The position numbers and the translations under genes are program-made. DNA of 64,000 nt from Owenia fusiformis (lineage: Eukaryota > Annelida > Polychaeta > Sabellida > Oweniidae): positions 12,376,822-12,440,821 of the forward strand of contig CAIIXF020000008.1 in assembly GCA_903813345.2 (NCBI GenBank), in the 5' to 3' direction. The notes beneath the pieces are model-generated. The model was not told the origin of the DNA, did not search any database, and saw only the letters and a program-made list of their open reading frames with translations. Below are positions 943 through 34,642 of this stretch, in pieces (positions within the stretch are counted from its first letter, which is position 1; the number at the start of each line of letters is the position of its first letter).

Positions 943-3900
943 CTAGGGCATACTACATGGTGTGTTTGACACCCAGTTGCAAGCATGTAAGGTGTTATCC
1001 CAGGACAGTCCAGTTGGGCAGACCTTAAGTTCAGCCACTCCTGAAGATGTAAACAAATATTGCGAGTAAAAAATTTCCTCATAAGAGGATCTAATTTAAA
1101 ATACAGAATTTTTTCATGTTCTTATAAATATACCTTCTACGCTGCAATGGTAATACTGGGTGCAGTTTGTCAGATCGGGAAAATAATATTCTTTCAGAGT
1201 CACATCACAGCTTATGTCTGGAAGAAATCGAAAAAAAGCTTGTTCTGTATACATCTCTATATTTTCTACCAGTTAGAATATGGAACTAAGGAAAATCTAG
1301 ACGTTTATTTTATTTTTTGGGTTGCAACCCCTGCCTAAGTGAAATTTTTATGAAATAAGCAATATTTTGTTACCGTACAGCATACCTTGCTTACAACAAG
1401 TATGTGACCCAGACCACTGTAGACCAGGCATGCATTCCCTGACACCATCTGGTATGAAACCTTGGTAACAACCATATTTGGCAGTGTCACCCACCTCATA
1501 GCCTGTCACATTAACGTAACCATGGAGACACGAGGGCAGCTTCGGACAGCAGCAGGCTGTACATAATAAAGTCCGTTTTGATTTCTTATTGATGTAATAT
1601 AATACATTTACCTATTTAATTATCATTTTTTATTCACAAACTATCTTTCCTTGCAGTAATTGGCATCCTGGAGGCACTTAAATAAGTTAAAAAAGTTTTC
1701 TTTATTAGCTCTCATTTAAGTCTCGATTGATAAAAAATCCCAGAGTTCTAGGAAAAATAGGAATATACCCCCAGGCCTCCAAAAGTCTGGGGGGGGGCGC
1801 TAATGGGAACATGGTCGCCAATTACGGAAAATATGGTATCTCCTTAAAGTCTTAAACACTGTAATGTCAGAAAATGTATGCAAGAACTTACTATTGGAAA
1901 CAGATATTTTACATTCAGGTGTTGTTCCATCCCAAACTAATTCCTCAGTGCATCTCCTCATGGTTTTAGATGGATCACTTATCACATATGGAGGTCTACA
2001 TGTATAATGTGCTTCACTTCCAGGGACTTTTCTGTCATCCGAGTATTTAATGTTACCATTAGGAATGAATGGTAATGTGCTACATGCTTTGAGTGCTACA
2101 CACTCTGGGGCTTTGCCATCCCATATAAGATTATTTCCATTATTTGTACATTCACGCATGGATAGGCTTGGGTCATTTAGATGATAGGGAGAATAGCATG
2201 CATATGTTGCAGTTATTCCCACACCCAAGACCCAGTAGGAGTATGTTATATAGCCATTTTGAATATATGGAAGTACATCACATGATTCAGCTTGACTACA
2301 GTCATCTCCCTGGTGAGGAAATATACAGCATCGTAAGGCTACATATATTGAGAAAATATACAGTATTTATGCAATTATGCATTAAAAATACAGAGCCCTC
2401 ATATACAAGTTAAAAAATGAATTTATGACAGTGACTTAAGCATAGGCCCCGGGAACATGTATAAAATAGCGAGTCAACATCTGTATTACTACTTCTTCTG
2501 TAGTAATACAGATGTCGACTCGCTATTTTAAACATATTCCCGGGGCCTATGGACTAAGTGCCCATGCTGATTTTGACTTTTTTCTACTTGTGTTATCTAA
2601 CTATGGAGAAAAAGAGGGAGATCTATGACAGTGGCAACCTCAGACTCTCTTATATCTTACCTGCCATCCACTCTGGCACTGGCACACATTGGGTCCTATA
2701 CAAGTACCATGGCCATTGCAATCACCCAGGATAGAACAGTTTATAGCTTAAATATAAATGATAAAAGGATGATATCTTGTAGGAAAAGTCACTTAAGTGT
2801 TTACAGGGTGTCAAATAAATATGTTCTCCCCCTTAATTTCAAGGGTATGAACTTTTATGCATAAGGGTGCATCTACTTGAACTAGTCAACTGACACTCCT
2901 TGTAGAGTTGCTTTATGAAGCCTAGTTTTAATGTGCTAAAGAACAAATCAGATATCATGCAGACAAAAAAGTAATGCAATATTATGTGGATATTGAAATT
3001 AAGGGGAGAACATATTTATTATCCCATCGAACGAAGTTTGGAGGGATATAGGGAACGCCTCCTTCCGTCCGTCCGGGCAATAACTCAAATACCGTTGGCC
3101 CGATTTTGTTCATATTTTGTACACATATACCCTATGGGGGTAGAAGTTCTGCTCGAAAGCCGATTTTCAAAATGGCCGCTCATTTCAAAATGGCGGCCAT
3201 TTTAGTGCCGAATTTACAGTAATTTAGGTGCAATATGTAAAACTGTAATAGCAATATGTTTTAGATGTAAAAAAATTATATAGGACATTAATAAACCTAG
3301 AAATGTAGATATTAAAGAAGCACATGGCAGCCATCTTGAAAAATTGCGGCCTTTACTCGTTATTTTACGATTTTTGCTTTAACTCGAAAAGTAGTGGAGC
3401 GATTTTGTTCATATTTTGTATGTGAATACTATAAACATTGCACACTGTCTAAAGACACTTTTGTTAGAAGGTGGCCATTTTAAAAAATGGCTGCCATTTT
3501 GAAAAATGGCCGCCATTTTAGCCTATTTTACTATAACTCGAAAAGTAGTGAAGCAATTTTGTTCATATTTGGTATGTGAATACCATAAGGATGGCACACT
3601 GTCTAATGACACTTTTGGTAGAAGGTGGCCATTTTGAAAAATGGCCGCCATTTTAACGTATTTTACTATAACTGGAAAAGTAGTGGAGCGATTTTGTTCA
3701 TATTTGGTATGTGAATACTAAAAGCATGACACACTATCCTATGACACTTTTAGTAGAAGGTGGCCATTTTGAAAAATGGCCACCATTTTAATGTATTTTA
3801 TAATAATTCGAAAAGTAGTGAAGCGATTTTGTTCATATTTGGTATGTGAATACTGTAAGCATGGCACACTGTCTAATGACACTTTTGGTAGAAGGCAGCC

Positions 3901-6900
3901 ATTTTTCAAAATGGCCGCCATTTTAACATATTTTACTATAACTCGAAAAGTAGTGGAGCGATTTTGTTCATATTTGGTATGTGAATACTATAAGTATGGC
4001 AAATGGTCTAATGACACTTTTGGTAGAAGGCGGCCATTTTGAAAAATGCCTGCCATTTTTGCTATATACTTTGTTTGTAAAAATGCCATCCATGGCTGTT
4101 CGATGGGATTCACTACGCTTTGGCGTTGCCGTTGTTCTGGTTTGACACCGTGTATAATATATGTATTGAGAGGTGCATATTACACTTAAATGTATTTTGT
4201 ACACTGTACCTTCGCATGTTGGCAGAGGGTCACTCCAACGTCCTACAGCCATTGTAGGATCAGTGCCATCTATACATGTTATTGTGGCATGCCCATTTAT
4301 ATAATACCCTGCTGCACATTTAAAAGAGACCTGATTGCCCCAGCTATTGTTAATTGAGACCCCTTCTGTGATGAACAATCTGTCTGGTAGTGGGGAGATA
4401 TCTGGGCAAGTGATTTCTATAATTGAATATTCTGTGTTAAAGGGTTCCGATAAGCATCCCGTATAAAAACAATATGGCGGCTCCAGGCGAATCGACTGGA
4501 TCAGTCCATTTTTATGAAAAAAGGGGAGTTGTAAAATCCAGTTTATTGAAATTGTCTTTGAGATAAAGTAATCCGTTTATAATGATTTTGAAAACATTAT
4601 CCATAGAGTGATTGCGTTCAAAGAATATGTACAACAGCCAATATAAATCCTTGTATTAGAACTGCTTTGTTTCATTTGTAGGATATTTCATATACCAAGC
4701 TGTGTGCTATTACGTTATGGGGAAATTTAGATGTCAATTTTCCTTATTATACACAAATAGAAGATCCTGAAACTTCACCCATAAATGTGGAATTGATTTG
4801 TCAAATAAAAATCACCGTTTTATAAATATGTGACGATCTATAATATACTTATGCTATATAACAGTTAGAGGTGTTGACACAACGACCTCGAGCCTGTGAA
4901 CCCTTGAGTATTATTCCGGGATCGGGCCTTTTATACTAAACGGTGAGCAACACCAGAAACGAGCGTTCGATTTGCTAAACGATATGCGTCACCCTTTAAA
5001 CATGAACATTAATTTGATATGTAAAGGCATGTTGATACTGTGTTAAGCATGAACATAGATTTGATATATAAACACACTACCCTACCTCGATAGCGCATGC
5101 GCGAATATTTTGGCTTTCAATCAGGTCGCTTTTGAGTATATCGACTGCTTAGTGAAAAGGTTAATACGTTTGGTGCTCGGAGTGAGTCAATATTGCTATT
5201 CGCTTAACTTCAGTGGTGCAATAGTGAAGTCCATGTTCCAAGCTATATGATAGTTGAAGAAAGAATGTGAATAATATCGTTTTAAATTTTAAAATATTTG
5301 ATATGTCATAGTACACGGTACACAGCTGCAAAAGTTGATCAATACAGGGTACAAGGAATGTAAATTGTTCAATAGTACAGGGAGCGAGAAAGTAAGCTGA
5401 TTATACAGACATACTATTCCCGATCTCATGTATATTTACGTTGCAAACAGTGAAACTAATGCTAAAAAGGCCGCCTGTTGATGCTTTGTGTCATCAATTG
5501 TTATTTAATCCAAATAAAGTAAACATTATTTAGTAGATTTAGACACGGGCTTTCAGGTCGTATATGCATTTTAGTTATTAAATTAACAAGAACGCTAGAT
5601 TATACGTGTTACTAGGGTATCAAATTGAAATAAAATAACGAAATTAAATATAAACACGTAAGTGATAAATGACTATCGGCTATCAGGATTAATGACTATC
5701 CGCTATTCAGAATAATTAAAATTGCGTGAACTACATGTAAAGAATCTTTCTATATAACCCCTTGAATGGTCTAATTCACTACCGTCCTCAAAAACCGATC
5801 ATTTAAAATAGTTTGTTCAAAATACCATCATGCCACGACATTTTGTTCTTCACGATTTGCTGTAGAGGTGATATGACGTCGTATTTCTCTATTATTGTAA
5901 AAAAAACTAATACCAGATCGATGTAGTCTTATATGACGTGTTGGATGTCAGATGTTTTTGGATGGTATCTGCTCCAGTGATTTTGCATTTAATCATGAAA
6001 CGCTCATCACAAGACACCTCGAAACAAACATTATCCTCCTTGTGACAAGAGGAAAAATGTTTCACAATATGTTATGCCTTACGGCAAAGTAAAGATACAT
6101 TTCTGGGACGACTTTTTTGCATCTTAAGATTTTAGAAAAACAATTAATTCACAAAAGTACAGTTGAATAACATACTGGAAAACGACTATCCACATATAAC
6201 ACGATGACATGCGGTTTAAATAACAGTTTACTGGGGTTTTGTTAATATCAATGTAACATTTTCGAAGGGAAACTTACATGCTCCCTGTACGTTGACAGAT
6301 TTACTGAAATGTATCGTGTATTGCATTGAGTTTTGCTTCACTGCACCCACTATTATCTATCTTTGCCTATAGTGGTTTTTTGCCAACAATATTCTACAAA
6401 CTGCTTGATGAATCAATTCTTTGTCTGGTAGAACACTCAAAATAAATGTAAAATGTATTTTACGTTCAGAAATATGGAATTAAACCCACGTCCTCCATTT
6501 GCAACTTAGCTGTACCCTGTTTCCCTTTTAAACGTGGTCACGTGGTAGGGTAGTGTGATAAAGGCATTGATTCTGTGTTAATCATGAACATAGATTTGAT
6601 ATGTAAGGACATGTTGATTCTGTGTTAATCATGAACATAGATTTAATGGGTAAAGACATATTGAGACTATTCCGTGTGTCCTTGTTTCTATTCTTACCTG
6701 TACATGTTGGCACACTATTTTTCCACCTTAAACTGCTCTTACATTTCATGTATGTTGTGCCACTTAGGAAGTAACCATCATCACATGAAAACCAAACATG
6801 ATCCTTTGGCTTGTAAATACCATTTTCATGATATGACTCTGTTGTTATACTGAGGTGGTCTGGTAGTGGAGGCAGTAATGGACAGTGCTCTATGATACCT

Positions 6901-7886
6901 TCCTCTGAAGAAAAGTTATCATAATTTGATTACACATTCCTTTCTTTTGAATATCATTTTTATATTACACTTTGAAATAGTGCTATATTGTTTGAATTTA
7001 GAATGATAAAATAGATTAAAATTCCTCAATTCACTAACCTTTTATAGCATTACTATCTAGAATGATAAAGTCTTGAAGTATAGAGATAAGTCAATGCTTT
7101 ACTTTCTGAGAAATAGAAAAACATCTTACCCCAGCATACTGGGATTCTTCCAGGAAGCCATATGGGTCTTCCATTTTTATTAAGTTTACATGTTTTAGAT
7201 GCTGGTCCAATTATGTAGTAGCCGTTGTTACATGTAAATGTAGCAACACTACCTAAATCATAAATGTACATACAGTATCATGGCAGGTCTTATTGCTGTT
7301 ATTCTTGATAAAGAACTTGCAAAATAGTACTATTTGGCATTATTTGCATAGTGGTATTGAAGCCATATTAATAATTGTCCATGTCAACAGAATGCTTTGT
7401 GAAAGAGATCGCTATGTCACTTGTCATTACTTGATAGCCTTATATTTTTGAGGATTTCTTGAAAAGTAAAAATGTGCAACAACATTCAAAACTTCTTCAA
7501 GAAGTGATATTGCAAAATGCAAAACTGTGGTCACTTTGAATATTCAGTACATATTCCACTGAAGTTATTTTGTCATGCTGTCCATTATACTAGTAACAGT
7601 TCAAATTCATTCAAATACATGTATTGCATAAATTATATACTCGATCAATAGAGGTTGCTTAATGACAATTCTATAATAAAACTAAACTTGATGACGAGAG
7701 TTTGAAGTTCTTTTGGTAAAGGAAACATAAGAAATGGTATGACAACTACTTACCCAATGTATACCCAAGTGTTACTTCAACAATGCCATTTTGTATGCTT
7801 AAAGCTGCACATGCGTCCTCACAAAGTACATAGTCTATATTGCATACCAAATAATATAGCAAAACATAACCAAGCATGTTGTGCAT
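943..7886 (-). CDS. Secreted sushi/EGF/chitin-binding protein, short paralogue (8 exons, about 480 aa)
   Basis: I read eight exons: 7886-7754, 7252-7130, 6904-6698, 4416-4210, 2746-2661, 2309-1892, 1556-1386 and 1040-943. Each junction has GT-AG borders, phases agree, and the total is 1443 nt, or 480 residues plus stop. The start ATG opens a hydrophobic leader (MHNMLGYVLLYYLVC), so the protein is probably secreted. In order it has three sushi domains (residues about 24-85, 86-154, 155-223), an EGF-like unit (224-252, pattern CNGHGTC...CQCQSGW), two sushi repeats in one exon (253-391), one more sushi-like unit (392-448) and the last half of a chitin-binding type-2 domain (449-480, CPTGLSWDNTLHACNW). 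Each block matches a block of the gene upstream at 8388-19919, so the two are tandem paralogues. Sushi and peritrophin folds bind proteins and chitin-like glycans; an extracellular recognition or matrix role is inferred. Confidence 0.85.
2441..2552. repeat. Near-perfect hairpin MITE
   Basis: Two arms of about 50 bp (outer end CATAGGCCCCGGGAA, mirrored at the right as TTCCCGGGGCCTATG) enclose a loop of about 7 bases. The flanks GACTTAAG and GACTAAG resemble a target-site duplication. It sits in the intron between exons 2746-2661 and 2309-1892 of the short sushi gene. The family is not identified. Confidence 0.75.
3016..4140 (+). repeat. Repeat family A, copy 1, with an internal tandem array
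   Basis: The element opens with TTATTATCCCATCGAACGAAG and closes with TGTTCGATGGGAT followed by a conserved tail ending near TTCTGGTT. The ends therefore form a short imperfect inverted repeat around ATCCCATCGAAC. From about 3330 the body repeats a unit of roughly 115-130 bp containing TTTTGTTCATATTTGGTATG, GACACTTTTGGTAGAAGG and the palindrome AAAATGGCCGCCATTTT. Relatives lie at 37151-37826 and 44461-45366. It occupies the intron between exons 4416-4210 and 2746-2661 of the short sushi gene. The open frames inside it are produced by the repeat and are not genes. Confidence 0.85.
4441..4995. mobile_element. TTAA-flanked DNA element (555 bp)
   Basis: The element is bounded by TTAA at 4437-4440 and at 4996-4999. 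Its termini are AGGGT and ACCCT, a very short inverted repeat. TTAA duplications are typical of piggyBac and Kolobok elements; which of these applies is not settled. No coding capacity is visible, so it is non-autonomous. The insertion splits the 47-bp minisatellite. Confidence 0.65.
5073..6557. mobile_element. DNA element with 14-bp TIR and 5-bp target duplication (1485 bp)
   Basis: The termini are CACACTACCCTACC and its reverse complement. The direct duplication ATAAA flanks it at 5068-5072 and 6558-6562. Ends starting with CAC and 5-bp duplications recall Transib, but I see no transposase, so this is only a suggestion. It is inserted in the 47-bp minisatellite inside an intron of the short sushi gene. 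Confidence 0.7.
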
Positions 7887-8387
7887 GTCAGTTGGAACAG
7901 TTGACTGATTAATATGATAATCAAGAATGGGGTAGAAAGTGATTGGAAGATATAAAAAGCATCTTAAATTCCATTATTTTAATTGTTTAAGCTTAACTTG
8001 ATACGATTAAGTATAATGGATTAATCAACAATAGTGGTTTATATTTAGATTCTTAGTGATTTTGTTTAATGCTTTCTTTTGATGATGTCAATTGCTTTTA
8101 CAGTGTGTGAAAATAATCATATGTGGCATTAATAAAAACATACAAAGTGATACTTTCTCACTTTCAAACTATAAATCTAAAAGAGCCTTTCTTACTAATG
8201 CATTGTTTTTTATTAATCATTAGGTTTTCAATAAAATTATATTATTTGTGAGCAAGACAAAATGAGAAAGCAGTCATTTTTATATTATGGAGGAGATTTT
8301 AATATGATAAAGATCTGGCATTCAATACATCAGTCTATTGTTGGCCATAGAAGTTGCAGATCTAGTAAAATAAGTAGGTATTGTACT
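7887..8387. other. Spacer between the two sushi paralogues
   Basis: About 500 bp separate the stop codon of the long paralogue (8388) from the start codon of the short one (7886). The spacer must hold the 3' UTR of the first and the 5' region of the second. It is AT-rich. A polyadenylation hexamer on the minus strand is listed separately. No promoter element is clear enough to call. Confidence 0.6.
8209..8214 (-). terminator. Candidate polyadenylation signal AATAAA
   Basis: TTTATT on the plus strand reads AATAAA on the minus strand, 174 nt past the stop codon of the long sushi gene. Such hexamers arise often by chance in DNA this AT-rich, so the call rests mainly on position. Confidence 0.4.
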
Positions 8388-11300
8388 TCACTCCAATCCA
8401 TCTCCTTCAGTAGGACACTCTACATTTTTTGGCCAATCACAATATAATCTGTCATTATTCCAAAGTAAACCAGAAGGGCACCATTTTAGCCAAGGTATAC
8501 CTTAATTTAGAAAAATACTTGTAAATTATTTCACCGAGATCATTCTCAGAATTGCTGTATACTGTTTTCTTGAATCATTCTGGCATGTACAGAGGGACCA
8601 GTGACTTATATCCATATACTAGATCAAATAATTTTATAAAATAGAATAACTCATCTATTATTGTGCATGTTCATGCAATCTGCACAAATTGCCTAATCTT
8701 CTGATCAATTCATATTTCTGAATATCCTATAGCACTTCATGGACTATGGATTTCATCTTGTTGTATCCCCAACTATGTCAGACCACTGGTATTCATTTTA
8801 AGTTTCATCTAAACATGTGTTGTAAATCTTTCAGTATGAATGAAATGCCCATTGACCGTGTGGCTTTGGATTATGACAGTCCCTGAATGGTAAGGAGAGG
8901 ATATTAGACACTATTTCTTCTGATTTTTTGTTACTGTGTTTTGTTCTTTTTGTTCTCTTTGCAACTGAACTTATATGTTTATTATTTGTACTAAAATTGA
9001 AGAAATTTCACGACTCACCATCCAAGCCACAATGGTAAAATCTATGGCATGAAGTTGTATCAGGGAATAGCCTATGCACATCCCCAATTTTTGGATCAGA
9101 GCTATTAGCTGGGCAATCTACACCTGGTGGATAGTATATTATGCATGATGGGGCTGGCTCCTCCCATGTTGAATCATTAAGGCATTTTCTTGGTGATAAA
9201 TTTGGATCATCCAATTCATACAGGTAACTGCAATTATAAAAGGCGAGGGTTCCCGGTGGTCTTCTTTTATCAGAATAAGATATAGAACCTCCTTTGATAT
9301 CTGGTAATAGATCACATTGGTAGGGATTTGATTTCACACAGGAGGGTTCTGTACCATCCCATGTCAAATTCTCTGTACATGTTCTTGTAGCAGTGCTTGC
9401 TTCCTTGATCTCATATCCTTCATGACACACGTAATAAGCAAATGTTCCTGGTATTTTTTTGTCATTAGAATATGTTATACTTCCACCCTCAATGCTGGCC
9501 AATGCTGAGCAATTTCCTGGGTGTGTAAATACCATACAAACCGGGGCTGTACCAGTCCATGTAAACTTATCAGTGCAAAGCCGAGGTGTAAGTTTATGGT
9601 TGTTAAGTTCTGTTGGTGGATTGCAAACATAGTAAGCAAGGGTACCCTGGGCAAGGCTGTCATTACTATATGTTATTGTGCCATCTTTGATATCTGGTAG
9701 AGGTTTACAAGCAGTGCAGTTTTCTACAAAACAAGGAAAATCATTCTGTCAATTTAAATACGGGGCAATAATTCCTTGAAATCATAATCCTGCATGCAAT
9801 TAATTATAATTCAAGACTAACCACAAATGTAGTTGTTGCAAACCATGCATGGATATCCTGGCCGTTCTTTATTACAGTCTTCATCTTTGCAACATTCGAC
9901 TGAAATTGAAGGATGCATGTGAAAACACGTTCCATCATATTAAATTAATTTTGGTATATTAGCATGTGTTATTTCAAATTAAAATGAATCATCAGATTAT
10001 CGATTTATTTGATCAGAAATAAGTAAATTGTACCTCTGCAAACTTTACAATTTGGGGCAGGACATGCACCTTGGATCACGCATCCAGGCTTTTGGAGATA
10101 GCATTTACAGTTCCTCCAAATACCATGTTTATTATCACCACAAGGGCATCTGAATTGAAATACAGTAAACTCTCAAGTGGATTACCTCTGTTAATTAGTA
10201 GATCCCCTTTCAGATTTCAATGACCCAGTGGCTCAATCTTACTAACACATGTTTTACTTCATGAAAGTGTGAAATATAAATTAGTTGATTATTTCATTTT
10301 ACTTTAATATGAATTTAATACAAAACATTTTGAAATTTTCTCACTATGAATTTACAACCCTTGCAAAATTGAATATGAATTATATATATCTTACTTGTCC
10401 TGGCAAGCACATTTACCATCTGATCCTAAGCTGGATAGACTGCAATCTTTACATTCGCATTTACATGGACATTGACTATTCTGATCAATTATATCTTTCG
10501 TAATACGATCTTTGCATAAACAAGAGCACTACAAAAGAGATATCCTACAATATAATATGTTTGTGTGTGTATTTCACAGAAAAATTGCTTTTATTTTCAA
10601 AATCATTTCGAACTAATTAGCATTAATCTCAGGTCATTTAAAATTGTGTACTACCTTTCTATAAAATGTGAGTTTATTAAGATGCAATTACATTTAGTAT
10701 TTTGACATGTGATGACTTTTAATATGTGTGAGAAAGTGCCAACAGAAAAGTACCAAAAATGGTAACAGAGCACAGCAAGTAAAAGAAGACATCTAAGAGA
10801 ATACAAAGCCCAAAACTATCCCAAATTATAATCCAATGTGAAAAGAAACAGTGTCTAATATCCCCCCTCCCAATAATACTGAAGTCATTACAATACGTGT
10901 TGAACAATAATTTAAAAAATTGAAAGTCAATACTCATAACATCAAAAATAGATGTAATAGTTTAAGTTATCTAAATCATTTGACACTGTATTAAGTTGAT
11001 CACTTCTTGTGTGTTTTGATTTTTTGGAAATAAGACCAAAACTCAAATTCAAATTTTGAAGTGAATAAATGGTGGCTGTTTGATTTTGAAATTTTAAATC
11101 ATGATATGACTCCATATATGGCAGAATATCAAGTTGGAACACTGGGAGCCAATCCTCCTTGGTATTGCAGTATGAACCTACATCACATGATCCATCAGGT
11201 CTCATTTTGTCATAATCCTGTCCATCAGCACATTTACAGGGGCACCATAAAGATCCATCTGCCCTTAATGTTTTAATTCTTTTATCTGGACACCTTTCAC

Positions 11301-14300
11301 ATATGCACTGACCACCCTGCCTCTAAACATAGTATGATATAAAATTAGGAATGTAATCAACAAATATCCAGGATCAAGGATAGTTTGTAGATGCCTTTAT
11401 TGTCTCAGTGGTGGCAGAGTTATTTAGTATAAACAGGGTGTCCAGTGAATATGATTGATTTATATTATTTATGATATATTATTAATGCTAAGAAGCATAT
11501 GTGCAATCAGTTAAGTGCAGGATGGAAATATGAAGATATAATTATAATGCCCTGGGAGTGGTACTTACCTTGTAACTCATGTAAAATTCTTCTCCAACTT
11601 TACACATACACTTACAATAACATTCATCAGTGATTGGGTCTAGTATACCATCTTCTCCAGTTTCTTTACATGTGCAGCAATTTACTCCTGGTATATCACT
11701 TGGCAGGCAAACACTAGAAAAGAAATACACTCATCACATAAATTCTTTGTAAAGAGTTTGCTGCAGGAGTATTTGGCAGCACCCACCAAAGCAATTTGAT
11801 TTATCCTACCTTTTGGTTATCATAAGATTTGGAGTTTCAAAGTCCAATAGTGAGAAGGTATCTTCCCATATAAACAGATTCAAAGCCAAATCTGCTACCA
11901 CCTTCTCTATTCCTGCTCTTAAGTCAACTCCTATTTCTTTTTCTGGTTCATTCTTACAACTATCGGTACACAAAGAGGCAATGACTTCAACAATAACTGG
12001 TGTGCTGATTGACAGATCAACTACAGGTGCAGCATCTGAATATATGTGTAATTTGATTAAGTTTCAGTTGATCAACATTCTGCAGTATCCTTCTATTGGT
12101 AGAAAGTATTAAATTCTTCAAGTGATGGATTTATTTTTGACAATCAAAAGACAAGTGCATCACCTTACTCTTTAACTTTTGTGCTGCATAAACTAGATAA
12201 TGTTACTTACTTCCTGATCCTGTTAAGATATCCTCCAGGAAACCAGGAACCCACCAAGGAATGTCATTCTTAGACAGACCGGTGCTTGGCCATGCAACAC
12301 CTAGCTTTGGAGTCAGTGTACTTCTTGCACCAGCCTCTGTTTCTTTCTTGTCAACTTTTCCTGTCAATCCTTTTTGGAATGTCACATCAAACTGCAGTAC
12401 ATCAGCATGCATATTTAGGCAATAATAACATTTACAAGTTTGTTAAATCATTGTTTAGAATTCCTTATGAACATTTGAACTCTTAACAGTATATTGTATA
12501 TTGACTAAAAATTGATTTGTTTTATAAAATGGGTATGTTTGATCTAAAAAGATCTCACAAATTTATCTGAATTATTTCCCACACTAGTATTTACCGTAGG
12601 CCTAGTTATCCTCAAACCATTAGAATCTGTCCAAGCTGCTCCCATAGTTGTAACAGCCGTAGCTCCTATATGTCCTTCAACAAAAGCTTTTGCCTGTTGA
12701 GAAATAAATTGTCAAAAATGTCATACTTAGCCTTACTCAATAGTTTATATTGTAATATAGTGTGAATTAAATTCAGTTAAATTAATTCCTGCAAACAGCC
12801 GCCATTATCCCACATAACATACACACGGGGGATAAGCAAAACGAGGGCGAAGCCACGGACTGCGACTCGCGTAATTCAAAACGAGGTTACAACGCATTAT
12901 AGCTGAACAATGGCGGTAAGTCCAAACTTAATTTGGAAGGCATGTTAGGATTTGGGGTAGATTATTGGTTTGGATATTCTACAGAATAGCTAGTATGTTC
13001 CAGTCGGTGATCAACATATTCATTCTCCATCTGCAATGGCATTCTTGGTGCTCGGCTGTCCAATAGTTTAGCATGAACACAAATGAATTCGAAATCTGCC
13101 ACAAAAAAATGTAATTTTGTCAATATTTGTCCCTAATATACCGATTTAAACAAAGGAATCAGAAATGACATCGAATTAATATAATTATTCATGTTCTGTT
13201 GTTACAATTACATCTTCGTGTGATATTTGGTAAGCGGAAAACGTACAATTACATAGAAAATTGGAATTTATAATAGTCGCAGTCCATCCATCTGCCCAAC
13301 GCAGTTCGCGACTTAGTGTTGCTTTATATCTGAAGCTGAACGCAATCACAGCCAAAGGTAGATAGCACAATGTGTGTACAGGTGTGGCCGAAATGGAGCA
13401 ACTTTGGACAAAATTGAATATAAAGGGCTATTTTAATAGACCTACATCGTGTCTCAATCCATTCTGCAAATATATACAAGCTGTCAAATACAGCTGAAAT
13501 CATGAATTTATGGTAGCTAGCAATATTGATGGACTGTTGGAAAGATCATCCAAAATTACATTAACTCACCAACTCTCCAATTATTTGATATTTTCCTGAT
13601 ATCTTAAATACTAGTTAATGTACCCTTCCCCAACAGCTTTTATTGCATCATCAAAAAGTTAATTGTTTCGCATTTCTACTTCTTATAAAAAGTCTCACCA
13701 CTATCCAATTATTTATATATTTAACCCTATCCACAAATTGGTTTGTAATAAAAATATTACGTTGTCATCTTGCGCTCGACTGTTCTGCCAAATACGCTAT
13801 TGAATTGCCATATTTCTAGGTCTTAAACGATACAATATAGCAATTTGGGACATTGATTCAGGTAATAGATATATGTTAATCAACGTAACTTTGAATGATA
13901 ATCTGGATGCTGACTTTCTTTTCCTGAAACAATAATAGCATAGGAATATTATTATAAGTTTACACTATCTTATTTATTTCGTGTTGGCGGCTGGACTGCG
14001 TTACTTAGAATATCAATGGAGGCTGTGTTGCGTTGTTGAAATAGCTTTGTTTACTGGACTGCGTCCACTGTGAATGCGCAGTTTGAATCTAATTTTCTCC
14101 TCATGAACACATTCTATTATCAAATCATTTTCACGAATTATACTCGGAGCCTCAACTAACCTTTAGATATCAGAAACGTGTTAAAACTCCTTTCAAATGT
14201 ATAGTAAATTAAATAATATGCACATATTTTACAGGTAAAATCAGATCTTTGCTACTGTTTTAGCTTGATCTGGACAACTGCTTATTTTCTTATCTACAGA

Positions 14301-17300
14301 CCAACAGTAGATACAGAGTAATATTTTGGTCACCGATTAGACACTACGATAGCATTTAAAATACCTGGATTTCTCTATTTTGTCGGAAGAAGCAGAAGGC
14401 ACTGCCGGATGTCCCTCCATTTTGGCGCTGGGCTGCGGTGTAAAGTTACGCGAGTCGCAGTCCGTGGCTTCGCCCTCGTTTTGCTTATCCCCCGTGATAC
14501 AAGAGATTATATTTTATCTTCTGATTCTGCCCGATGATTTCTCCTGATCCTACCCCATGATATTCACATAATAGACTAATTGAATAACAATTTTTGGCTC
14601 ACATGGTAAGCCTATGTCAGCCATTCATCAGTCTGTTTATCAGTCCGTCAACAATATTTACGACAAATGAAATATGCCACATGCTCATATCCTGTTTATG
14701 GAGGTCTGTACTGATAATTTACTCAATTTTTTCTAGTTCCTACCTTTGCCTTGTTTTGGACAAATCAAAATTTCATCAAAATAGCAAAACTGAAGAGCAA
14801 GCCAATATATGCCATCTCTATACAATATTACTTTAAGGACTGTTGTTCTGTCTTTATTTACCTTAGCCCATACTTTTGCTTCAAAATCTAATTTGAAGTA
14901 GATTTTCCCAGGAATTGGAATAGCAAATACCATAATTATAAACCGTCTCAAAGTTTTGTCTACAAGTTGTTTCTCCCATGTTTTCTCGAACCTATAATAT
15001 AAATTATGTTCTTTTGTATTTTTAACATGTAACATCCTTAATCTGCAGTCTAATGGATAGCTCTTTTTGAATAGTCTGATATTGGTTTTTTAATATTCTT
15101 TTATTAACATACTGAATTTATATGGAACAGTGTAAATATAACTAGAAAAGCCATTACCCATTTTCAAAAGTTACAGTTACTGTCAGTCCTGTCTTAAGTG
15201 TCCCTGATAAATCAGCCCCTACTCTGTATATGAAAGGTGGCCATATTCCTACCTCAGCAAAAAGTGTGAGAGAAGGAGTAAAGATGAAGTAAGGGTCAAA
15301 CTTCATGGAAACTCCTCCACCAAACTGAAATCATATACGAGGGCTGATTCAAAAGTAATGTATAGAAAATTTTCATGTTTATTTTCTTCTTTTATGACTA
15401 ACCTTTTATTAACAAAATTCTTAATTTCTGTGACAAATCTCAATAATTTGATATCTAGCCTGATGGGGCTTTGTCTCACCTGGGGTTTTAGCTTGATCAC
15501 ATGTTACTCATGATCTTTCCTGATGAGTTGTTTTTGCCTGAACATGTATTTGCCTAATCAGGCATTCTAGCCAAAACAAGCATTCTTTGGTGTGATCAGG
15601 CAGTTGATCCTAACTGATTATTTGTCATTTGTCAAACTTACGTTTACTGTAGTAGGTGTTCCATATCTCCATCTTGGAGCCCATGTTTTCGAATAAGTTT
15701 TTCTCTTTATTCTTTTTTGTTCTGCTGGTACATATGTCTTGTTTTTGATCTCATCAGTCAGTGGGAGACCCTCAATGAAGGTGAACTCTCCAATGCTAGT
15801 TACCTCATAGATCTACAATTTTTATCAGCATTATTTCATTTCATATTATTCAGCACATGGCTGCATACAATGTGCTTATAAAAACTACTTACCTGCAAAA
15901 GAAATGCTCCTGATGGTCTGCCTACTATAATATCTCCATGCGTTAGATCTGTCTGTGATTGATGAAAATACTGCAGTGCAGGCCAGTTATCTCCCCCAGG
16001 ACAAATCATTCTCTTGCCACCTTTTGTAGCTTCACTGTCAACAGTTGTACTTGTTATGATTCTGAAATGTTCCATAACATGTCATGCAATACTTTACCTT
16101 CATTTTCTTCATTAAACCTTTATTAGCTAATACTTTTTCCAAAGTGATCAATTCCCATCATATAAGACCTTATCTTTAACATGAGGCTTATCTTTAACAT
16201 GAGGTTTATATTTACTTGTGTAAAAGGTGTTTCTCTGTTGAACAATCCAGGAGACTTGTGACAGCAATCTTAGCTGAAGTGCTAATAGTTTTGATAACTT
16301 CCAAATATCCCTTTGTGGCATTTCCTATGAGGACACCACCTTTCTTGTATGTTTCAGTAAGATCCTTTGTAAGCAGAACCAGTGTTACGGAGCTTATTTC
16401 ATTGTGTATATCATCTTCAGCATGAAAGAGTCGCCCGACACACTTGTAGATGTTTTCCTCTACAACAGACATATAAAGATACAATGTAGTCTAAAAAGTG
16501 AACTTTCATGAAAGGCTTTATCTTAGTAACTAAACATGTCTAAGAGTGGTGAAAAGTTCAGGGGGTGAAATGTCCAGGGAACTGGATGTTTTCAAAATAA
16601 AATATCCTTGGTTAGTATTATGATGAGTCAGTTATCCTTGCCACTTGATTTCGAGGTTGCATTCAAATCCTGCAGAAAAAAAGAAAATGCTGTAATTTTA
16701 GGCCACACCTCACCTGATATGACTGTTACATTGGGAACATTAGATATTGTTCCTTCTCCAGAAAGCAAAACTTCAAGCAGATCACTGTCAGGCACTTCTT
16801 CTATTGTGACTGGATCATCAATTGTTTCTAAAGGTGCTTCCATTTCAAAGTCAGTATACTCAATTGCCTCTTCAAGTGATGCAAACTTTCCATGAAAGAT
16901 TGTAAACCCATCTAAAAGTGCATCAAATGGAATATTTATTTATTTGATATTCAGGCATAAACTTTATCTCAGCAACAATATTTTTAAGGTGTGTTTACAG
17001 TCAGTTATACATTCAAGACATATTTGTTTATTTTTGAAATTTGTGGTTTTAGAAACTGATGAATTGATAAATTAATAGGATGATCATTGAACATTTTGAC
17101 TTGAAATAAATCTGTATGGTCAACGCTTATTTTTTAATAACTACTATATTGTAATACCCTTATAATTTTATAAAGAAAAGTCTTCTTTCTCAAGCATACC
17201 ATATTGTTTCACATTTTCTACTTTATGTAGCATCCCTCCAGCTTGAGCACTTGCAATGATATTTCCAACTTGTATAGGCAGAGAGTTGTTTTGCTTAGTG

Positions 17301-19919
17301 AAGAACATGTTTGCATCAGTGCCATCCTTGTGTACCATACAGTGGTAGAATATGGCATCCTCAAGGGTTATAACTTTTACATTAGGTTTAATATCTGTGT
17401 ACTTCATCCTGTCTGGGTCAGTGTAATCTGGCACAACCAAACCACCTGGACATTTGCTATCATCCCAAGACTTACATGTCTAACATAAGTACAACATAAT
17501 TATAACATATGATGTAAGAATATCCTGTATATGACTTGATTTAGGTATCATTTTTAACATAGGCTCAAAACATTATTCTACACCCCATATTTTAATTTTG
17601 GGTGAAATCCACGTGGTCTTAATTTATGATTATTTCATCGTTTGTCAAAATTAATGTGTTCAGAATATGTAATAGAAATATTGATGGTTAAACTTGCAAA
17701 GTTTGTGTCCATGTTGAAACATTTCTCAAAGTCCCTGCATTGTTGGCAAAACATTCCTTTATAGGTATCCTTTGTGTTGTCACATCGTTCTGAGCAGGGG
17801 GCAGCCTGGAGTTGAGGATTTTAGGGAAAATTATTGAGAATAAGTAATCATAATCTGATAATAAAAGATTGTTCTTATATAAAATAATTTTGAGGTCTGA
17901 GAGATGATTTTTGACAGATTCTTTTTTCTAGCTCATAATTATCAAAAAGGAAAAAATATCCAATCAAATAACTTTTGCTAACCTTTATTTCTGGAGAACA
18001 GCCTGTACTTTTCTCAATTGTTACACAGTTCCAATAAAACCATGGCCCAGCCACAAGTGTGGTGTCAGGTTGGGTTGGGTCACCTGGGAAGCATTCTGGA
18101 TTTGGTCCACCTGACCACCCACAGGCATAATCCTCTACACATGTCTGACATGTGTGATGATTCTTGAGACATTGGTTGATCTCACATGATTCTCCCTGCA
18201 ATTAAATATACTTCATCAGCTTGTAAAGACAATATTCAGTTGTAATATAACATTAAAGATCTTGCATTTCATTATTTGAAAGATAACATGTTTGCTTCAT
18301 GTTTAGCGTCAAGACAAAATATTTCTTTCATGGGTGAATATATCATTTTCTGGGCTTACCGACCACCCAGCTCTACACTTGCAGACATTTGGCTTGATGC
18401 ATGCACCATGATCATAACAGTTATTTTGTTGGCTGCAGTCTGGCTCAGTACATTGTCTTCCTAGCCATCCTTGATCACACTCACACTGTCCTCCCACACA
18501 CTCACCATGTATCGAACAGTTATAATCTCCAAGGCATGCCTTTTCTACAATACCATCAGTTGACATAATTCTTGTTGTTTTATCTTTTTTTCAATTATTC
18601 TGCTTTGAATAATTTTTAATCAAATAATTTTTAAGTAATGAGATTGTTTCATCTATCCAGGATTGGCCCTTTATATATATGGCCATCCTCATCACTTGTC
18701 ATTTTAGTTTACTAATAATTATGTTGTAAGTGGATACCTTTGCAAGAAGGTAACTGTGAACTCCAGATTCCCTTTGGACCATTCCCTGTACATGTCATTG
18801 TTGATTCTCCAACTAGTTTATACATATCATCATCACATGCAAATACTATAGTATTGCCATATATGTTTGTTGTGGTTGAACCTTTTACAATAACCAGGTT
18901 GTCAGGAAGCACCAGATCAGGGCACGTTATAGCTGTAATTTCAACTTAATTGTATTTATTTTGTATTTTATTTATTTGGAAAATGTTTTGGGAAAATATT
19001 TTTGGATTTCATGTTGCTGTTTTATTGCCAAGCTTGTCATATGGTCTTATCTGAGATAAAATTTTGCTTTCATGGGATTTTTTAATCTCAGCCAACAAAT
19101 CGTGAGGAATCCCAATTTTGTCAAGTATACTATTCCTGACCTTTACAAGATGGCATATCAAATTTCCACTTTAGTTTCTTTAAACATTTCATCACTTGAG
19201 ATCCCTTGATGACGTAGCCCTCATCGCATACAAACTGCACTGTGTCACCTGCCTGGTAATGCCCATCTTTATGGAGGGTTTCTGGTGTGATGCGGAGTGC
19301 TTCGGGAAGGGTCGGGAGGTTAGGGCAGTTAAGCTGTACTGGTTTTATAGCTGAAATGTGCGTTGAATTTCATAATTATTCCAATGATCGTATTTATCTG
19401 CTTAAACATTAACATTTCATTTTTATTGTGCGCAAACTGGAATTTGCAGAATGAGATAATATAACTCATAGCTTGAACTAAAGCATTGTATTTTACTTTC
19501 AATACTCCAGAATGATTTCATGACTAGATAAGAAGCAATAAAAATAAATTTTTGATATTCAAAGGGTTTGTTTTAAATTATGGTCCAATACATCTCAACT
19601 TGACCAATAATACCACAACATTTCAAAGCATTCTTCAGTGTAGCAAAATGATAGTCCCCTAAGTATACCCACCTTGACATTTTGTATTTGGTCGTCGTGG
19701 TAACCATTGAACCCGTCTTCCCTTCTTCTTACAAGTTTTTGATTGTGGTCCAATGAGTTTGAATCCCTCTTTACAGGAATATGTGACCGTGCTTCCTACT
19801 GTCAGTTGGGTATAATTGGCATGCCCATTTTTCTGTGATGGCTTCTTGCATAATTTCTGGCTTTTTGCCATATGTGTGAGTAGCACACTCAGTCCAAATA
19901 TACAAACCAACGTTTTCAT
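8388..19919 (-). CDS. Large secreted sushi/EGF/Cys-rich/chitin-binding protein, long paralogue (23 exons, about 1484 aa)
   Basis: Exons: 19919-19673, 19350-19141, 18932-18738, 18544-18360, 18195-17983, 17805-17698, 17479-17200, 16911-16714, 16459-16216, 16061-15893, 15812-15642, 15324-15158, 14991-14862, 12693-12595, 12391-12211, 12035-11810, 11713-11569, 11322-11182, 10528-10395, 10149-10034, 9899-9822, 9723-9019, 8500-8388. Phases close throughout (1485 codons with stop). The leader MKTLVCIFGLSVLLTHMAKS is a clear signal peptide. Domains: sushi 1-3 (to residue about 217), two EGF-like units (218-279), a Cys/Trp-rich PSI-like segment (280-350), a short Cys-rich link, a long low-Cys body of alternating hydrophobic strands (387-1035), Cys-rich CxC repeats (1036-1212), three sushi repeats (1213-1405) and a peritrophin-type chitin-binding domain (about 1412-1478). 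The body matches no family I know. The intron after 17698 begins with GC (GCAAGT). The exon 11322-11182 donor (GTAGGT) is the least certain junction. Confidence 0.88.
12824..14496. mobile_element. DNA transposon with 51-bp perfect TIR and 5-bp duplication (1673 bp)
   Basis: The left end CACGGGGGATAAGC and its reverse complement start a perfect inverted repeat of about 51 bp. The direct duplication ATACA flanks the element at 12819-12823 and 14497-14501. CAC termini with 5-bp duplications are the Transib pattern. No transposase is visible, so it is non-autonomous or too decayed to tell. It fills most of the intron between exons 14991-14862 and 12693-12595 of the long sushi gene. The TIRs are much more GC-rich than the host intron. 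Confidence 0.85.
15338..15530 (+). mobile_element. One-ended mariner-like fragment
   Basis: TA followed by CGAGGGCTGATTCAAAAGTA is a typical mariner terminal repeat. No matching right end is found in this 317-bp intron, so the fragment is truncated. Its left end lies 13 bp from the splice acceptor of exon 15324-15158. The right limit is approximate. Confidence 0.6.
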
Positions 19920-26000: not shown

Positions 26001-29000
26001 TCAGAACTGATGTTCGCGTTGTTGGAAGTCTAGGAGGCCTGAACTGTACATTTATAATCACAAAGCATAAGCAGAAAGAGCAAGAGCTAGCAAATACACA
26101 TTAGAAAACTGAATTGAAACATGTGCAAAAATAAAACTACAAGCTATAAGCATTACTCAATGAACTCCACTGACTTAAACTCAGTCAGATTTATGTTGCT
26201 TGAAGTGTGGCCATGTATCATCTCAACTGCACTCTCACGAAGCTTTACAGAGGATATAGAGTGTTGAAACTGGGTCAGCTCACATGGGTTCTGACATACA
26301 CATGTGTCACTCTCAGTAATCGACTCTACAATGATAATACTTTTAATGTTTATTCATTGCATTTCTCACAATTTAAGGTGTTTCTAATGTTAATGGGGCT
26401 GATATGGTAAATTGTTTATATCACAATAGGAAGTCAAATCTATGTATTGTCTTCCCGACACGATAGAGCATTAATTAATTCCTCATTTTGACAAGCCATG
26501 GGATAAATATAATCATACCTAATGTTGGCAGAGCACAGTCATGATATTCCTCAGCAGTACAAACACGGATACCATGATCACCATGCATCTCAACAAGCCT
26601 ACATGAACATTTCTCCTCAACTATTAATGTCTCGCATTCAATTCTGCACGCAGGAATGCTGTAATGATCATAATGGTCAAGTTTGTGGTCCTCTTCGCAG
26701 TTGCCATAAGGGTCTGGTAAGCTTGTCACCTGAAACATTCTACATTTATATGATCTGTCCCCATTGGATAGCATGTTATTGTTTTATTTACAGTACCTAA
26801 CATCTAGCATAACATTTATATGTTTACACACTAAATGGATATACCATAGATTCAAAAATGTTCATTTTCTTGAAGAGAAAAGATGCTTCTTACATGTATG
26901 TCTGTTTATTATCATTGGTAACACTGATTTTGTGTTTGTGTCTTAAGTAACAGGTGTATATAAATATTTACTTAGTTATAGATTGGTGGAATAAATATAG
27001 ATTCAAAACATCATTAAACAGAGAAGTTGCTTTGTTACATTATTTAAAGAGCTAAACATTCTGATTTATTGACTATCCAAAGAACTATGATATTTTTGCT
27101 TGCATTTTAGTGCTGATCTTTTGAAATATAGTGCTCATATACACTGCCATCTTTTAAGATTTCACACAGGAAATGATGTCATTTTCTTTTCTTGCCCACA
27201 ACAGTATAGGAAAGTAGTACCAAATCACTTCTAGACAATTGGTCCTTATAATTCTTGTGCAAAACAAATGATAAATGATAGATGTAATTGAAAAATAATA
27301 TTCAGTGCAATTCAAGATTTTGTGCTTCTTACATGTGCTTCCCTAGTGCAATTAAGGGTTGGTGATATTACTTCCTTTGTGAAAACCTAGAAGATGACGG
27401 CCCACTTGAGTTGAACAGTACATTTCCTTTAAATATTTGACACTATAAATTGTTACCCTTTCTGTTTCCAATGCAATAAAGTAGTGGTTGCCAGTAGTCA
27501 CTCCAAATCCCAATTCCTGTATAAGTGGTGGTTCATCCTGGTCATGTGCCAGAATTTTAAAGCCAAGGTCTGAAGCTTCCATGTAGTTTAGGTACTCCAG
27601 TTCCTCTACATTTAGATAAAGTTTCAAACCATTTGCTTTACCTCCTTTAAATGACTGATGTTTGACACCATCCTTGCCAGAATTGAATTGATAGCATCGC
27701 CCATAGTGAGTGTTAATCAAGGTAAAGTTAGCAACAGAACACTCCTGTTGTTTCCATTTGCAGTAGATGAGCATATCCTCTATCTGGTGTCCTGCTCTTT
27801 CATACATCTCCTCCATGCTGTGATTGATGGAACGGTCATGGATCTCCACATCTGTCCAATTGATACTGTAAACCCAGTCATCAAAGGCTTTATCATAGTG
27901 CTCTGGGTGAAGAAGGGTCCAGTTCTCATCAAGAATGTTCAGGCTTGTTCCATAGTGAAGGAGGTCATACTCATTTAATTTGTGCCTTCTAAATGTATTG
28001 ATGTTGCAAATTGTGATTGTTGGGAAATCTGAAACACAATCAGATGTTTTATTGTACTTTGTACCACAGTTTCATCAAAGGCAATTTCATTTGTAATGTC
28101 CTGAGAGTATACCCCTAGAAAAAAACTAATGATTGATTGTATTTTATTTAATACAGCAACAATGTTGACACAATTGCATGTTAGGCTATAACCTGATTAT
28201 AACATTCCCAAAAGAGGTTAAATAACCTTCCAGCAAACAAAGACCCTATTTTCATCTTAAGGTGAATTTTTATTGGTTCATGAAGCACATACATCATGTC
28301 ATATCATCATTTCCTATTGGTCAAAATACATTCATTGATCATTACACAAACAGAAACAAAATGACAGCTCAAAATTTTGGAAACATGATTTGACCAAATG
28401 AATGTTGGTTTCCAGAATAATAAGTCATCAATGTGAATTCAGATCAAACCCATGACAAAGATGTATGTAAAGGGGTATCTCCTCTCATTTACAGTTTGAG
28501 TTACATATGTCATTGACTCAGTTGTTGTTAAAAGGATATTCTAGTACTACCTGGTTAAATTTATCATGAAATGTTCAAAATAAGAAGTAATTTGATAAAT
28601 GTGTTTGTTTAGTGTGATTAAATACTGCTTGATGGAGTTGCTGTTTTGCCTAGTTGGAATCTAGTGTGATTTATTGCATGCTTTTTCAGTTATTGGATAT
28701 TTTAATGGATATACCCAATATTCTGTTGTGCCATAGCTATGTGTGGGTATTAATGGGTATTAATGGGTGTTATTATGTGATATAGGATAAATAATGCATA
28801 ATGTGTCAATGTGTTATCAATTAATCTGAAAGAGAGCTATGTGGTATGTAATTTTACCTAAAGTATGAAATATTAATTGCTGATTGATTTTTTACATTAA
28901 TTACTTTTTAAGTGGTATGGATTTGGTTTTGCAAAAGCTTAGGCAAATTTCTTCATTGTGTCTACATGATTATTGAACATTGTGTGTATGGTTGCTATTT

Positions 29001-34500: not shown

Positions 34501-34642
34501 TTGTCACAATTGAATTATCTCTAAACAGATGTCTTACTCCATGAAATTCAACATCTTCGCCAAATTCCTTTAGTCTTGTTGAAAATGAATGCTCAATGAC
34601 AGGATCAGTTTGTTTTTCCTTTGTTTCAGTCATAACTTCCAT
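23067..34642 (-). CDS. Acid-sensing ion channel (DEG/ENaC family), complete, 6 exons, about 496 aa
   Basis: Exons 34642-34372, 28028-27457, 26729-26519, 26325-26157, 23651-23560 and 23242-23067 join with GT-AG borders and matching phases to 497 codons including stop. The protein is a plasma-membrane, sodium-selective channel subunit; family members assemble as trimers. Visible hallmarks in order: the cytosolic HG gating motif (EFHGVRHLF, residue about 34), first membrane segment (about 48-70), FPTITICNIN at the start of the extracellular domain, LPDPYGNC, the Cys cluster CETLIVEEKCSC, CVCQNPC, then GGQMGLCIGASILTVL in the second membrane segment, where GAS is the selectivity filter. Length fits ASICs (about 500-560). 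Intron 1 is 6.3 kb and full of repeats. Orthology within the ASIC group cannot be set from this alone, and acid sensitivity is not implied. Confidence 0.93.
23964..26041. mobile_element. TIR transposon with 5-bp duplication (2078 bp)
   Basis: The ends CAGGCCTCCTAGACTTCCAA and reverse complement form imperfect inverted repeats of about 180 bp rich in CGCGAAC-type words. AACTG flanks it at 23959-23963 and 26042-26046. It lies in the intron between ASIC exons 26325-26157 and 23651-23560. The interior has an 84-codon minus-strand frame (24128-24382) with no recognised domain and no clear transposase. Superfamily unknown. Confidence 0.8.
27115..27330. mobile_element. Old diverged relative of the 31629-32213 MITE
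   Basis: The words TGCCATCTTTTAAGATTT, GATGTCATTTTC and CACTTCTAGACAATTGGTCCTT align with the left half of the element at 31629-32213. Its ends are eroded. It sits in the ASIC intron between 27457 and 26729. Confidence 0.6.
28029..30900. other. Part of ASIC intron 1 without a recognised feature
   Basis: AT-rich intron sequence. Short direct repeats of GGGTATTAAT occur near 28747 and GTTAAAGTTTT near 30495. I see no exon and no transposon end. Confidence 0.45.
30905..31290 (+). mobile_element. LINE reverse transcriptase fragment (L1/Tx1-like)
   Basis: A plus-strand frame reads TDYKILAKSLANRLRKVIG, then DQCGYRPGRDTSYTALRVID, and after a break FQIFGFGPDFIKWIKTL. This is the fingers region of a non-LTR reverse transcriptase, best matching the L1/Tx1 type by eye (KILAxxLANR...DQxGFxPGR). 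Only about 110 codons remain; the catalytic YxDD region, endonuclease and 3' end are absent. It is a dead fragment inside ASIC intron 1. Confidence 0.8.
31494..31580 (+). repeat. (TGTC)n microsatellite
   Basis: About 21 uninterrupted units of the tetranucleotide TGTC. The open frame through it (repeating Cys-Leu-Ser-Val) is a repeat artefact. A pure array of this length is likely to be polymorphic. Confidence 0.95.
31629..32213. mobile_element. TTAA-flanked MITE with long inverted repeats (585 bp)
   Basis: TTAA lies at 31625-31628 and 32214-32217. The ends AGGGACATTCCTGGCCA and AGGAATATTCCTGGCCA (right end reversed) open imperfect inverted repeats of over 200 bp, including GTAGTGCTC...CTGCCATCTTTTAA and its mirror. 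Non-coding; piggyBac- or Kolobok-type mobilisation is inferred from TTAA only. It is in ASIC intron 1. Confidence 0.82.
32240..32256 (+). repeat. Poly-C run
   Basis: Seventeen consecutive C residues directly after the TTAA-flanked MITE, an unusual homopolymer in such AT-rich sequence and a likely site of sequencing or replication slippage. Confidence 0.9.
32643..33208. mobile_element. hAT-like MITE with 8-bp duplication (566 bp)
   Basis: Ends TTACTCACGTCGAGAGC and TTACTCCCGTCGAGAGC (right end reversed) are flanked by TTATTGAG at 32635-32642 and 33209-33216. An 8-bp duplication with short TIRs is the hAT pattern. The inverted repeat extends about 50 bp through AGTATAGCTCTC. Non-coding, in ASIC intron 1. 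Confidence 0.85.

Follow-up and report, generated by a model that had tools for sequence, protein, structure and literature searches.

Tandem genes for putative secreted proteins in Owenia fusiformis share related ends and differ by a 933-residue middle that the shorter copy probably lost

On contig CAIIXF020000008.1 of the annelid Owenia fusiformis, a 64,000-bp stretch (hereafter the window, C8:12376822-12440821, where C-numbers denote contigs) carries two adjacent minus-strand genes whose predicted secreted products begin and end with the same kinds of modules, sushi and EGF at the N terminus and sushi and CBM_14 at the C terminus, but differ by a whole central body. The locus thus raises the question of which form is the older: did the short gene lose the body, or did the long gene gain it? 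The order of events that we infer from the two gene models, their related ends, relatives of the body in four other genes, an intron shared within an EGF and the phases of a multiexon cassette is that the two genes are tandem paralogues, that their ancestor already contained the cassette and that the short copy lost it by internal deletion. To this explanation as a whole, with its proposed mechanism, we assign a probability of about 0.6. Searches covered the genome of 498,259,871 bases in 525 contigs, in which genes have many exons, as is typical of animals.

Two minus-strand genes with related ends

Both coding frames were rebuilt exon by exon on the minus strand, with splice sites chosen by reading. 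A first-pass annotation, made from the letters of the window, had described two genes, each with its own signal peptide, stop and closed frame, and the ends of our coding sequences agree with it to the base. Indeed, both models have a signal-like start, a stop and clean splice sites; the signal peptides of both were called by eye. The annotated total of 23 exons for the long gene also held, but the short gene needs nine exons rather than eight to close its frame. The features are as follows (window positions; evidence in brackets).

8388-19919, minus: long gene, coding span; 23 exons, 4455 nt, 1484 aa plus stop (model, splice sites)
19673-19919, minus: long exon 1, signal peptide (by eye) and sushi 1 (model, Pfam, sushi comparison)
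19141-19350, minus: long exon 2, sushi 2 (model, Pfam, sushi comparison)
18738-18932, minus: long exon 3, sushi 3 (model, Pfam, sushi comparison)
18360-18544, minus: long exon 4, EGF1 and the beginning of EGF2; entered at phase 1 and left at phase 0; opens the 1-1 cassette of exons 4-21
9822-18195, minus: long exons 5-21, the body, residues 280-1212; PSI-like start, uncharacterised region, RX[K/R]R motif, Cys-rich repeats
15642-15812, minus: long exon 11, furin-type RIKR motif, residues 717-720 (model, motif scan)
9019-9723, minus: long exon 22, sushi 4-6 and first half of CBM_14 (model, Pfam, sushi comparison)
8388-8500, minus: long exon 23, second half of CBM_14 and stop (model, CBM_14 comparison, Pfam)
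943-7886, minus: short gene, coding span; 9 exons, 1527 nt, 508 aa plus stop (model, splice sites)
7754-7886, minus: short exon 1, signal peptide (called by eye), then the beginning of sushi 1 (model)
7130-7252, minus: short exon 2, remainder of sushi 1 (model, sushi comparison)
6698-6904, minus: short exon 3, sushi 2 (model, sushi comparison)
4210-4416, minus: short exon 4, sushi 3 (model, sushi comparison)
2661-2746, minus: short exon 5, single EGF, ending at a phase-0 intron (model, EGF survey)
1892-2309, minus: short exon 6, last EGF Cys (GDDC), then directly sushi 4-5 (model, sushi comparison; putative fusion)
1386-1556, minus: short exon 7, sushi 6, unmatched by the long C-terminal sushi (model, sushi comparison, Pfam)
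1134-1217, minus: short exon 8, first half of CBM_14 (model, CBM_14 comparison, Pfam)
943-1040, minus: short exon 9, second half of CBM_14 and stop (model, CBM_14 comparison, Pfam)

All eight introns of the short gene are GT-AG, as are 21 of the 22 in the long gene; the remaining one, after exon 6, is GC-AG, a choice supported by a relative of the long gene on C5 (see below), which has GT at the corresponding exon. The same relative backs the donor picked from two candidates for long exon 14. Short exon 7 has, by eye, an alternative in-frame donor 9 bases upstream.

The Pfam scan found Sushi (PF00084) in six stretches of each protein, with scores of 120.8 and 102.5 bits against a cut-off of 20.7, and matched a Teneurin-like EGF besides. 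When the C-terminal pieces were scanned alone, CBM_14 (PF01607) scored 44.7 bits in the long protein and 40.0 bits in the short one (cut-off 22.1); in the whole-protein scan it was listed for the short protein, at 36.1 bits, and not for the long. We scored the sushi domains in a 6 × 6 table, with 500 shuffles that kept the Cys and Trp positions. Sushi 1, 2 and 3 of the two proteins paired in order, with scores of 102, 166 and 121 and identities of 44-45%, each pair being the top of its own row and column and lying above all 500 shuffles. The N-terminal match described in the first-pass annotation is therefore borne out for the three sushi, but one EGF of two is shared.

At the C terminus, short sushi 4-5 resemble long sushi 4-6 (109-154) with no one-to-one pairing. 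Because the sushi within each gene's array resemble one another (138-147 among long sushi 4-6, 140 between short sushi 4 and 5), the C-terminal copy number has changed. Short sushi 6 scores 24-44 against long sushi 4-6, its value with long sushi 6 (24.5) falling under the corresponding shuffle maximum of 38, and its best partner, long sushi 2 (71), does not outscore an array of sushi domains located elsewhere in the genome (72). The CBM_14 domains of the two proteins score 130 with each other, at 39% identity in that alignment, and at most 91.5 (long) and 79 (short) with eight other CBM_14 domains of the genome. A phase-1 intron splits both domains at the same place; by our reading, 117 of the 131 genomic CBM_14 matches listed run uninterrupted across that site, in a search that favours unbroken cases. 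The proposed block-by-block match of the C termini thus extends to the sushi 4-5 type and to CBM_14, but not to the third sushi of the short array.

Across the seven shared blocks, identity is 41-50%. In their 399 aligned codons, the frequencies of differences at codon positions 1, 2 and 3 are 0.44, 0.36 and 0.60, and third-position differences exceed second-position ones in 7/7 blocks compared. On this evidence from sequence, the pair look like old coding paralogues, both of whose frames would have been constrained until recent time.

Might the two genes nevertheless form a single transcription unit, in which read-through or alternative splicing would use the short exons as alternative ends of the long gene? 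The long stop lies 501 bp from the short ATG, and this gap has no clear excess of poly(A) signals (one AATAAA and three ATTAAA versus 2.4 expected). Moreover, the sushi and CBM_14 boundaries are in phase 1, so that many long-to-short chimeric joins would keep the frame. However, the short gene has its own ATG and signal-like start, followed by a full series of blocks in matching order, and a simple alternative end would need no second N terminus. We therefore regard a single unit as very improbable. The annotated separateness of the genes accordingly stands on two complete open reading frames with signal-like starts, stops and splice sites, and read-through or chimeric transcripts may still occur. 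That the short gene is a decaying copy, or one that is not expressed, is marginally less probable still. Repeats or hairpins occur in three of its introns, but the introns of the long gene also contain a transposon-like element, and the short gene maintains 508 open codons over nine exons with intact splice sites. Its Sushi and CBM_14 domains exceed the Pfam cut-offs, and the excess of third- over second-position differences in every block likewise argues against decay.

Several mobile or repeated elements were seen in the introns. Intron 13 of the long gene contains a 1673-bp element (12824-14496) with 51-nt perfectly complementary ends and ATACA flanking it on each side, which probably represents a recent insertion of a DNA transposon. 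Introns of the short gene contain a 111-bp near-perfect hairpin (2441-2551; 52-nt arms, 94%, 7-nt loop) resembling a miniature inverted-repeat transposable element and, at 3081-4152, several diverged copies of a 135-bp repeat.

The body and its relatives in the genome

The body of the long protein comprises 933 aa (residues 280-1212) encoded by 17 exons, 5 to 21. No match to it was found in the span of the short gene at E up to 0.01, in agreement with the earlier observation that the short gene lacks a middle of roughly 900 residues and about 17 exons. Comparison with Pfam gave no rows for the long body at E up to 1 and, with a limit of 5, none for its PSI-like first exon, and a sequence comparison of the long body with the PDB gave none. 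Three candidate assignments were rejected: laminin 1tle, the sole PDB row returned by a profile of four bodies, was dropped as weak (0.11), and PSI on the start of one relative (C4a, 0.0013) and TRAF3_RING on the C5 body (0.075) were below the Pfam cut-off.

The body recurs in the genome, at C5 ~38.976-38.984 Mb and, more weakly, at C1 ~31.052 Mb and C4 ~9.732 and ~9.775 Mb. The two C4 relatives are distinguished as C4a and C4b.

C5:38972842 onward: body relative
C1:31051411 onward: body relative
C4:9730668 onward: body relative (C4a)
C4:9772645 onward: body relative (C4b)

Identity to the long body over the aligned part, the first ~600 residues, is 50% for C5, 26% for C4a and 26% for C1, the exons of the last two having entered the alignment with approximate edges, and 18 cysteine columns are invariant among the four bodies. 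The C5 gene has counterparts for 18/18 of long exons 4-21, from EGF-EGF to the last Cys-rich exon; the phases used in that search were prescribed from the long gene, and exon 15 of C5 was recovered incompletely and with a weak acceptor. The RX[K/R]R motif occupies the same alignment columns in the long gene, C5, C4a and C1 and occurs also in C4b, and hence in 5/5 body genes; none was found in the short protein. In the long gene, C5, C1, C4a and C4b alike, a phase-0 intron interrupts EGF2 after the residue that follows the Trp, and a GxxC block comes next. The long gene, which has the body, thus belongs to this EGF-EGF-body family. The short gene has no body and exhibits the EGF2-intron/GxxC feature alone; it is likely a descendant of the family rather than a member.

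The surroundings of the body differ among its relatives. In the C5 gene, a signal-like exon appears by eye to join EGF1 directly, and the body is followed by a Cys-rich exon and a GDPH motif. This motif also follows the body in C4a and C1 and so was present in 3/3 relatives examined. Of three C5 pieces from beyond the body, none had a Pfam row that could be accepted: one gave rows below cut-off (Toxin_23, 0.0049; WAP, 0.42) and the other two gave none, so that the C5 GDPH stretch was not assigned to VWD. The C4a candidate gene has a beta-helix (PF13229, 1.9e-14) upstream of the body and, downstream, VWD (1.6e-7), EGFs and cadherin domains (1.5e-23), then a segment that by eye resembles a transmembrane one. 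A C-type-lectin-like match in the C4a region (C4:9.722-9.752 Mb) was subthreshold. By eye, C1:31.042-31.062 Mb is like C4a up to the EGF array, with beta-helix-like and lectin-like open frames, body and GDPH. A second EGF-EGF-body, with an EGF array, lies further along C4 at ~9.77-9.79 Mb (C4b).

Neither sushi nor CBM_14 was found by our own profile models in 140 kb around the four relatives. As controls outside the training set, the sushi model recovered an exon at C4:13747486-13747755 (6.6e-14), and the CBM_14 model, for which two sequences were used, picked up eight distinct domains elsewhere in the genome. A Pfam CBM_14 search of the genome, with 150 of 337 candidates scored, likewise listed none around the relatives. 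Taken together, the body is a large extracellular module that matches no accepted Pfam family or solved structure by sequence, is present in at least five genes of one genome and has very different partners: sushi and CBM_14 in one gene; beta-helix, VWD, EGF arrays and cadherin in another. The parallel beta-helix in what seems to be a large membrane protein recalls Drosophila Bark beetle/Anakonda, which one report lists as combining SRCR with a parallel beta-helix (PMC8006247). The C4a pieces that were scanned gave no SRCR row. A relationship of the C4a and C1 genes to Bark beetle/Anakonda is possible, as a lead only.

Loss or gain of the middle

The intron inside EGF2 provides the evidence on the order of events. 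We surveyed 39 EGFs of this one genome that fit a pattern. In six of them a GTAAGN donor stands right after the codon that follows the Trp, and these six are EGF2 of the long gene, of C5, C1, C4a and C4b, and the single EGF of the short gene. The remaining 33 read in frame to the last Cys; 20 of these negatives came from regions taken whole and 13 from small stretches picked as good matches to the EGFs of the window, and in one of these 13 stretches the pattern matched no EGF. EGF2 of C5 reads by chance to a Cys inside the intron, so that the script flagged it as read-through despite the presence of the donor.

The block after the EGF2 intron begins GxxC in the body genes, its edge being set by splice sites in the long gene and C5 and by eye in C1 and C4. 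In the short gene, the EGF intron is followed at phase 0 by GDDC, compared with the GESC that opens long exon 5, and the frame then passes directly into sushi 4; the long sushi 4 exon begins at phase 1. This layout of short exon 6 is the remnant expected of a deletion running from inside exon 5 to inside exon 22. Exons 4-21 of the long gene form a symmetric 1-1 unit, while exons 5-21 by themselves begin at phase 0 and end at phase 1, and the symmetry of the larger unit can explain how a long ancestor arose between sushi exons. Thus, because the short gene shares the phase-0 EGF intron and its next exon resembles the start of a body exon fused to a sushi exon, internal loss is favoured: within the evidence of one genome, the short gene probably lost the middle rather than the long gene gaining it. 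Under this explanation, the common ancestor would probably have been a secreted protein in which an 18-exon EGF-EGF-body cassette was placed between sushi exons and a sushi/CBM_14 tail. After duplication, an internal deletion in the short copy would have removed EGF1 and the entire body, fusing the beginning of body exon 5 with the sushi exon.

The opposite order has a short-like sushi-EGF-sushi-CBM_14 gene come first and duplicate, after which exon shuffling brought the body into one copy. The two ends co-occur, among the genes seen, in this pair only and the body is found elsewhere without them, as a gain would predict, and a cassette of phase 1 at both ends suits the phase-1 sushi exons. 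However, two features of the body genes, the EGF2 intron and the GxxC that opens the next block, are already present in the short gene. In addition, exons 5-21 alone would break the frame within one intron, and the cassette must therefore have carried both EGFs along. We consider gain rather unlikely on these grounds.

Several observations do weigh against internal loss. The polarity rests on a single genome. Short sushi 6 has no counterpart, which calls for at least one more change, and short sushi 1 is split by an intron of its own that is absent from the long gene. The survey covers few EGFs, some of which are related by duplication; 13 of its 33 negatives derive from a search that favours uninterrupted EGFs, and for C5 EGF2 the read-through flag was set although the donor is present. 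The short EGF is no closer to EGF2 of the long gene (43 bits) than to the EGFs of C1, C4 and C5 (50-55 bits). Finally, no relic of the body was seen in the span of the short gene. Tandem secreted paralogues are known to differ by loss or gain of an entire middle; here the intron within one EGF makes such an event unusually readable.

Possible functions and other loci

Secretion, chitin anchoring via CBM_14, ligand binding via sushi and EGF and a furin-type cut at RIKR are predicted from the domains and motifs of the two proteins. The long protein may be a matrix or surface protein that grips chitin-bearing material by its C-terminal CBM_14 and binds partners through its sushi and EGF blocks. 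A furin-type protease could cut it at RIKR (residues 717-720), yielding an N-terminal chain with sushi 1-3 and the EGFs and a C-terminal chain with the chitin anchor. The long protein could thereby release or rearrange its front end; the short protein, which has no such motif, could not, and would permanently connect ends of the same kinds as one chain. Should cleavage occur at the RX[K/R]R motif, the two genes would provide a natural comparison of a cleavable and an uncleavable version of one matrix protein. A bolder and unlikely proposal is that the body represents a new extracellular module of ~900 residues, moving as a symmetric 18-exon cassette among giant membrane and secreted proteins and cut in two by a furin-type protease, with the short protein as an uncuttable antagonist or constitutive form linking sushi to chitin.

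The short protein might alternatively be a competitor that tunes the long one by occupying its ligands with both ends, a role compatible with either history of the locus. The end modules are in the same order, with no body in the short protein. Factor H and the FHR proteins are sushi paralogues in a gene cluster, the short ones of which retain end modules of the long one, and the two genes described here are likewise tandem paralogues with shared end modules. The deregulation of factor H by FHR-1 is a precedent for such action by short sushi paralogues (PMC7959842; PMC5096715). It offers a model for competition, in which the C-termini of factor H and FHR-1 differ by two residues (PMC7959842). 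By contrast, the pair described here has EGF, CBM_14 and a 933-residue non-sushi body, and its shared blocks, at 41-50% identity, are far from the near-identical ends of factor H and FHR-1. Short sushi 6 also differs in kind from the long C-terminal sushi. Competition between the two proteins is therefore a possibility weakened by divergence, and we think it unlikely; given the identity of 41-50%, the short protein more likely has its own partner or tissue than acts as a plain blocker. The C-terminal CBM_14 above the Pfam cut-off is a feature that both genes share with peritrophin-type CBM_14 proteins; the difference is that here a single CBM_14, with a phase-1 intron inside, ends a sushi/EGF protein.

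A literature search combining sushi domain, chitin-binding, EGF-like and shell matrix found nothing, and among the titles listed by broader searches none described this architecture, although a prior description may exist. One listed paper, on the VWA and chitin-binding domains of mollusc Pif proteins, mentions sushi (PMC11291548).

A third gene with the same ends was considered at C4:13747513 and rejected, since within 10 kb only one matching exon and no complete gene was found. That exon, at C4:13747486-13747755, is apparently a lone signal-peptide and sushi exon, 51% identical to long exon 1; it lies just upstream of a sulfatase match, with no continuation in the 10 kb read. A sushi-like match (0.014) and an opposite-strand CBM_14-like match (0.27) in the same 10 kb were both too weak to accept. 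Elsewhere in the genome, an open frame listed as 2766 aa at C1:21970307-21978334 has many sushi matches in one frame, and another, listed as 3683 aa at C11:15407496-15411773, has at least five CBM_14 matches. In the window itself, upstream of the long gene and also on the minus strand, exons of the amiloride-sensitive sodium channel family (PF00858) were seen at 27352-28071 (3.2e-36) and 34358-34645 (5.6e-11).

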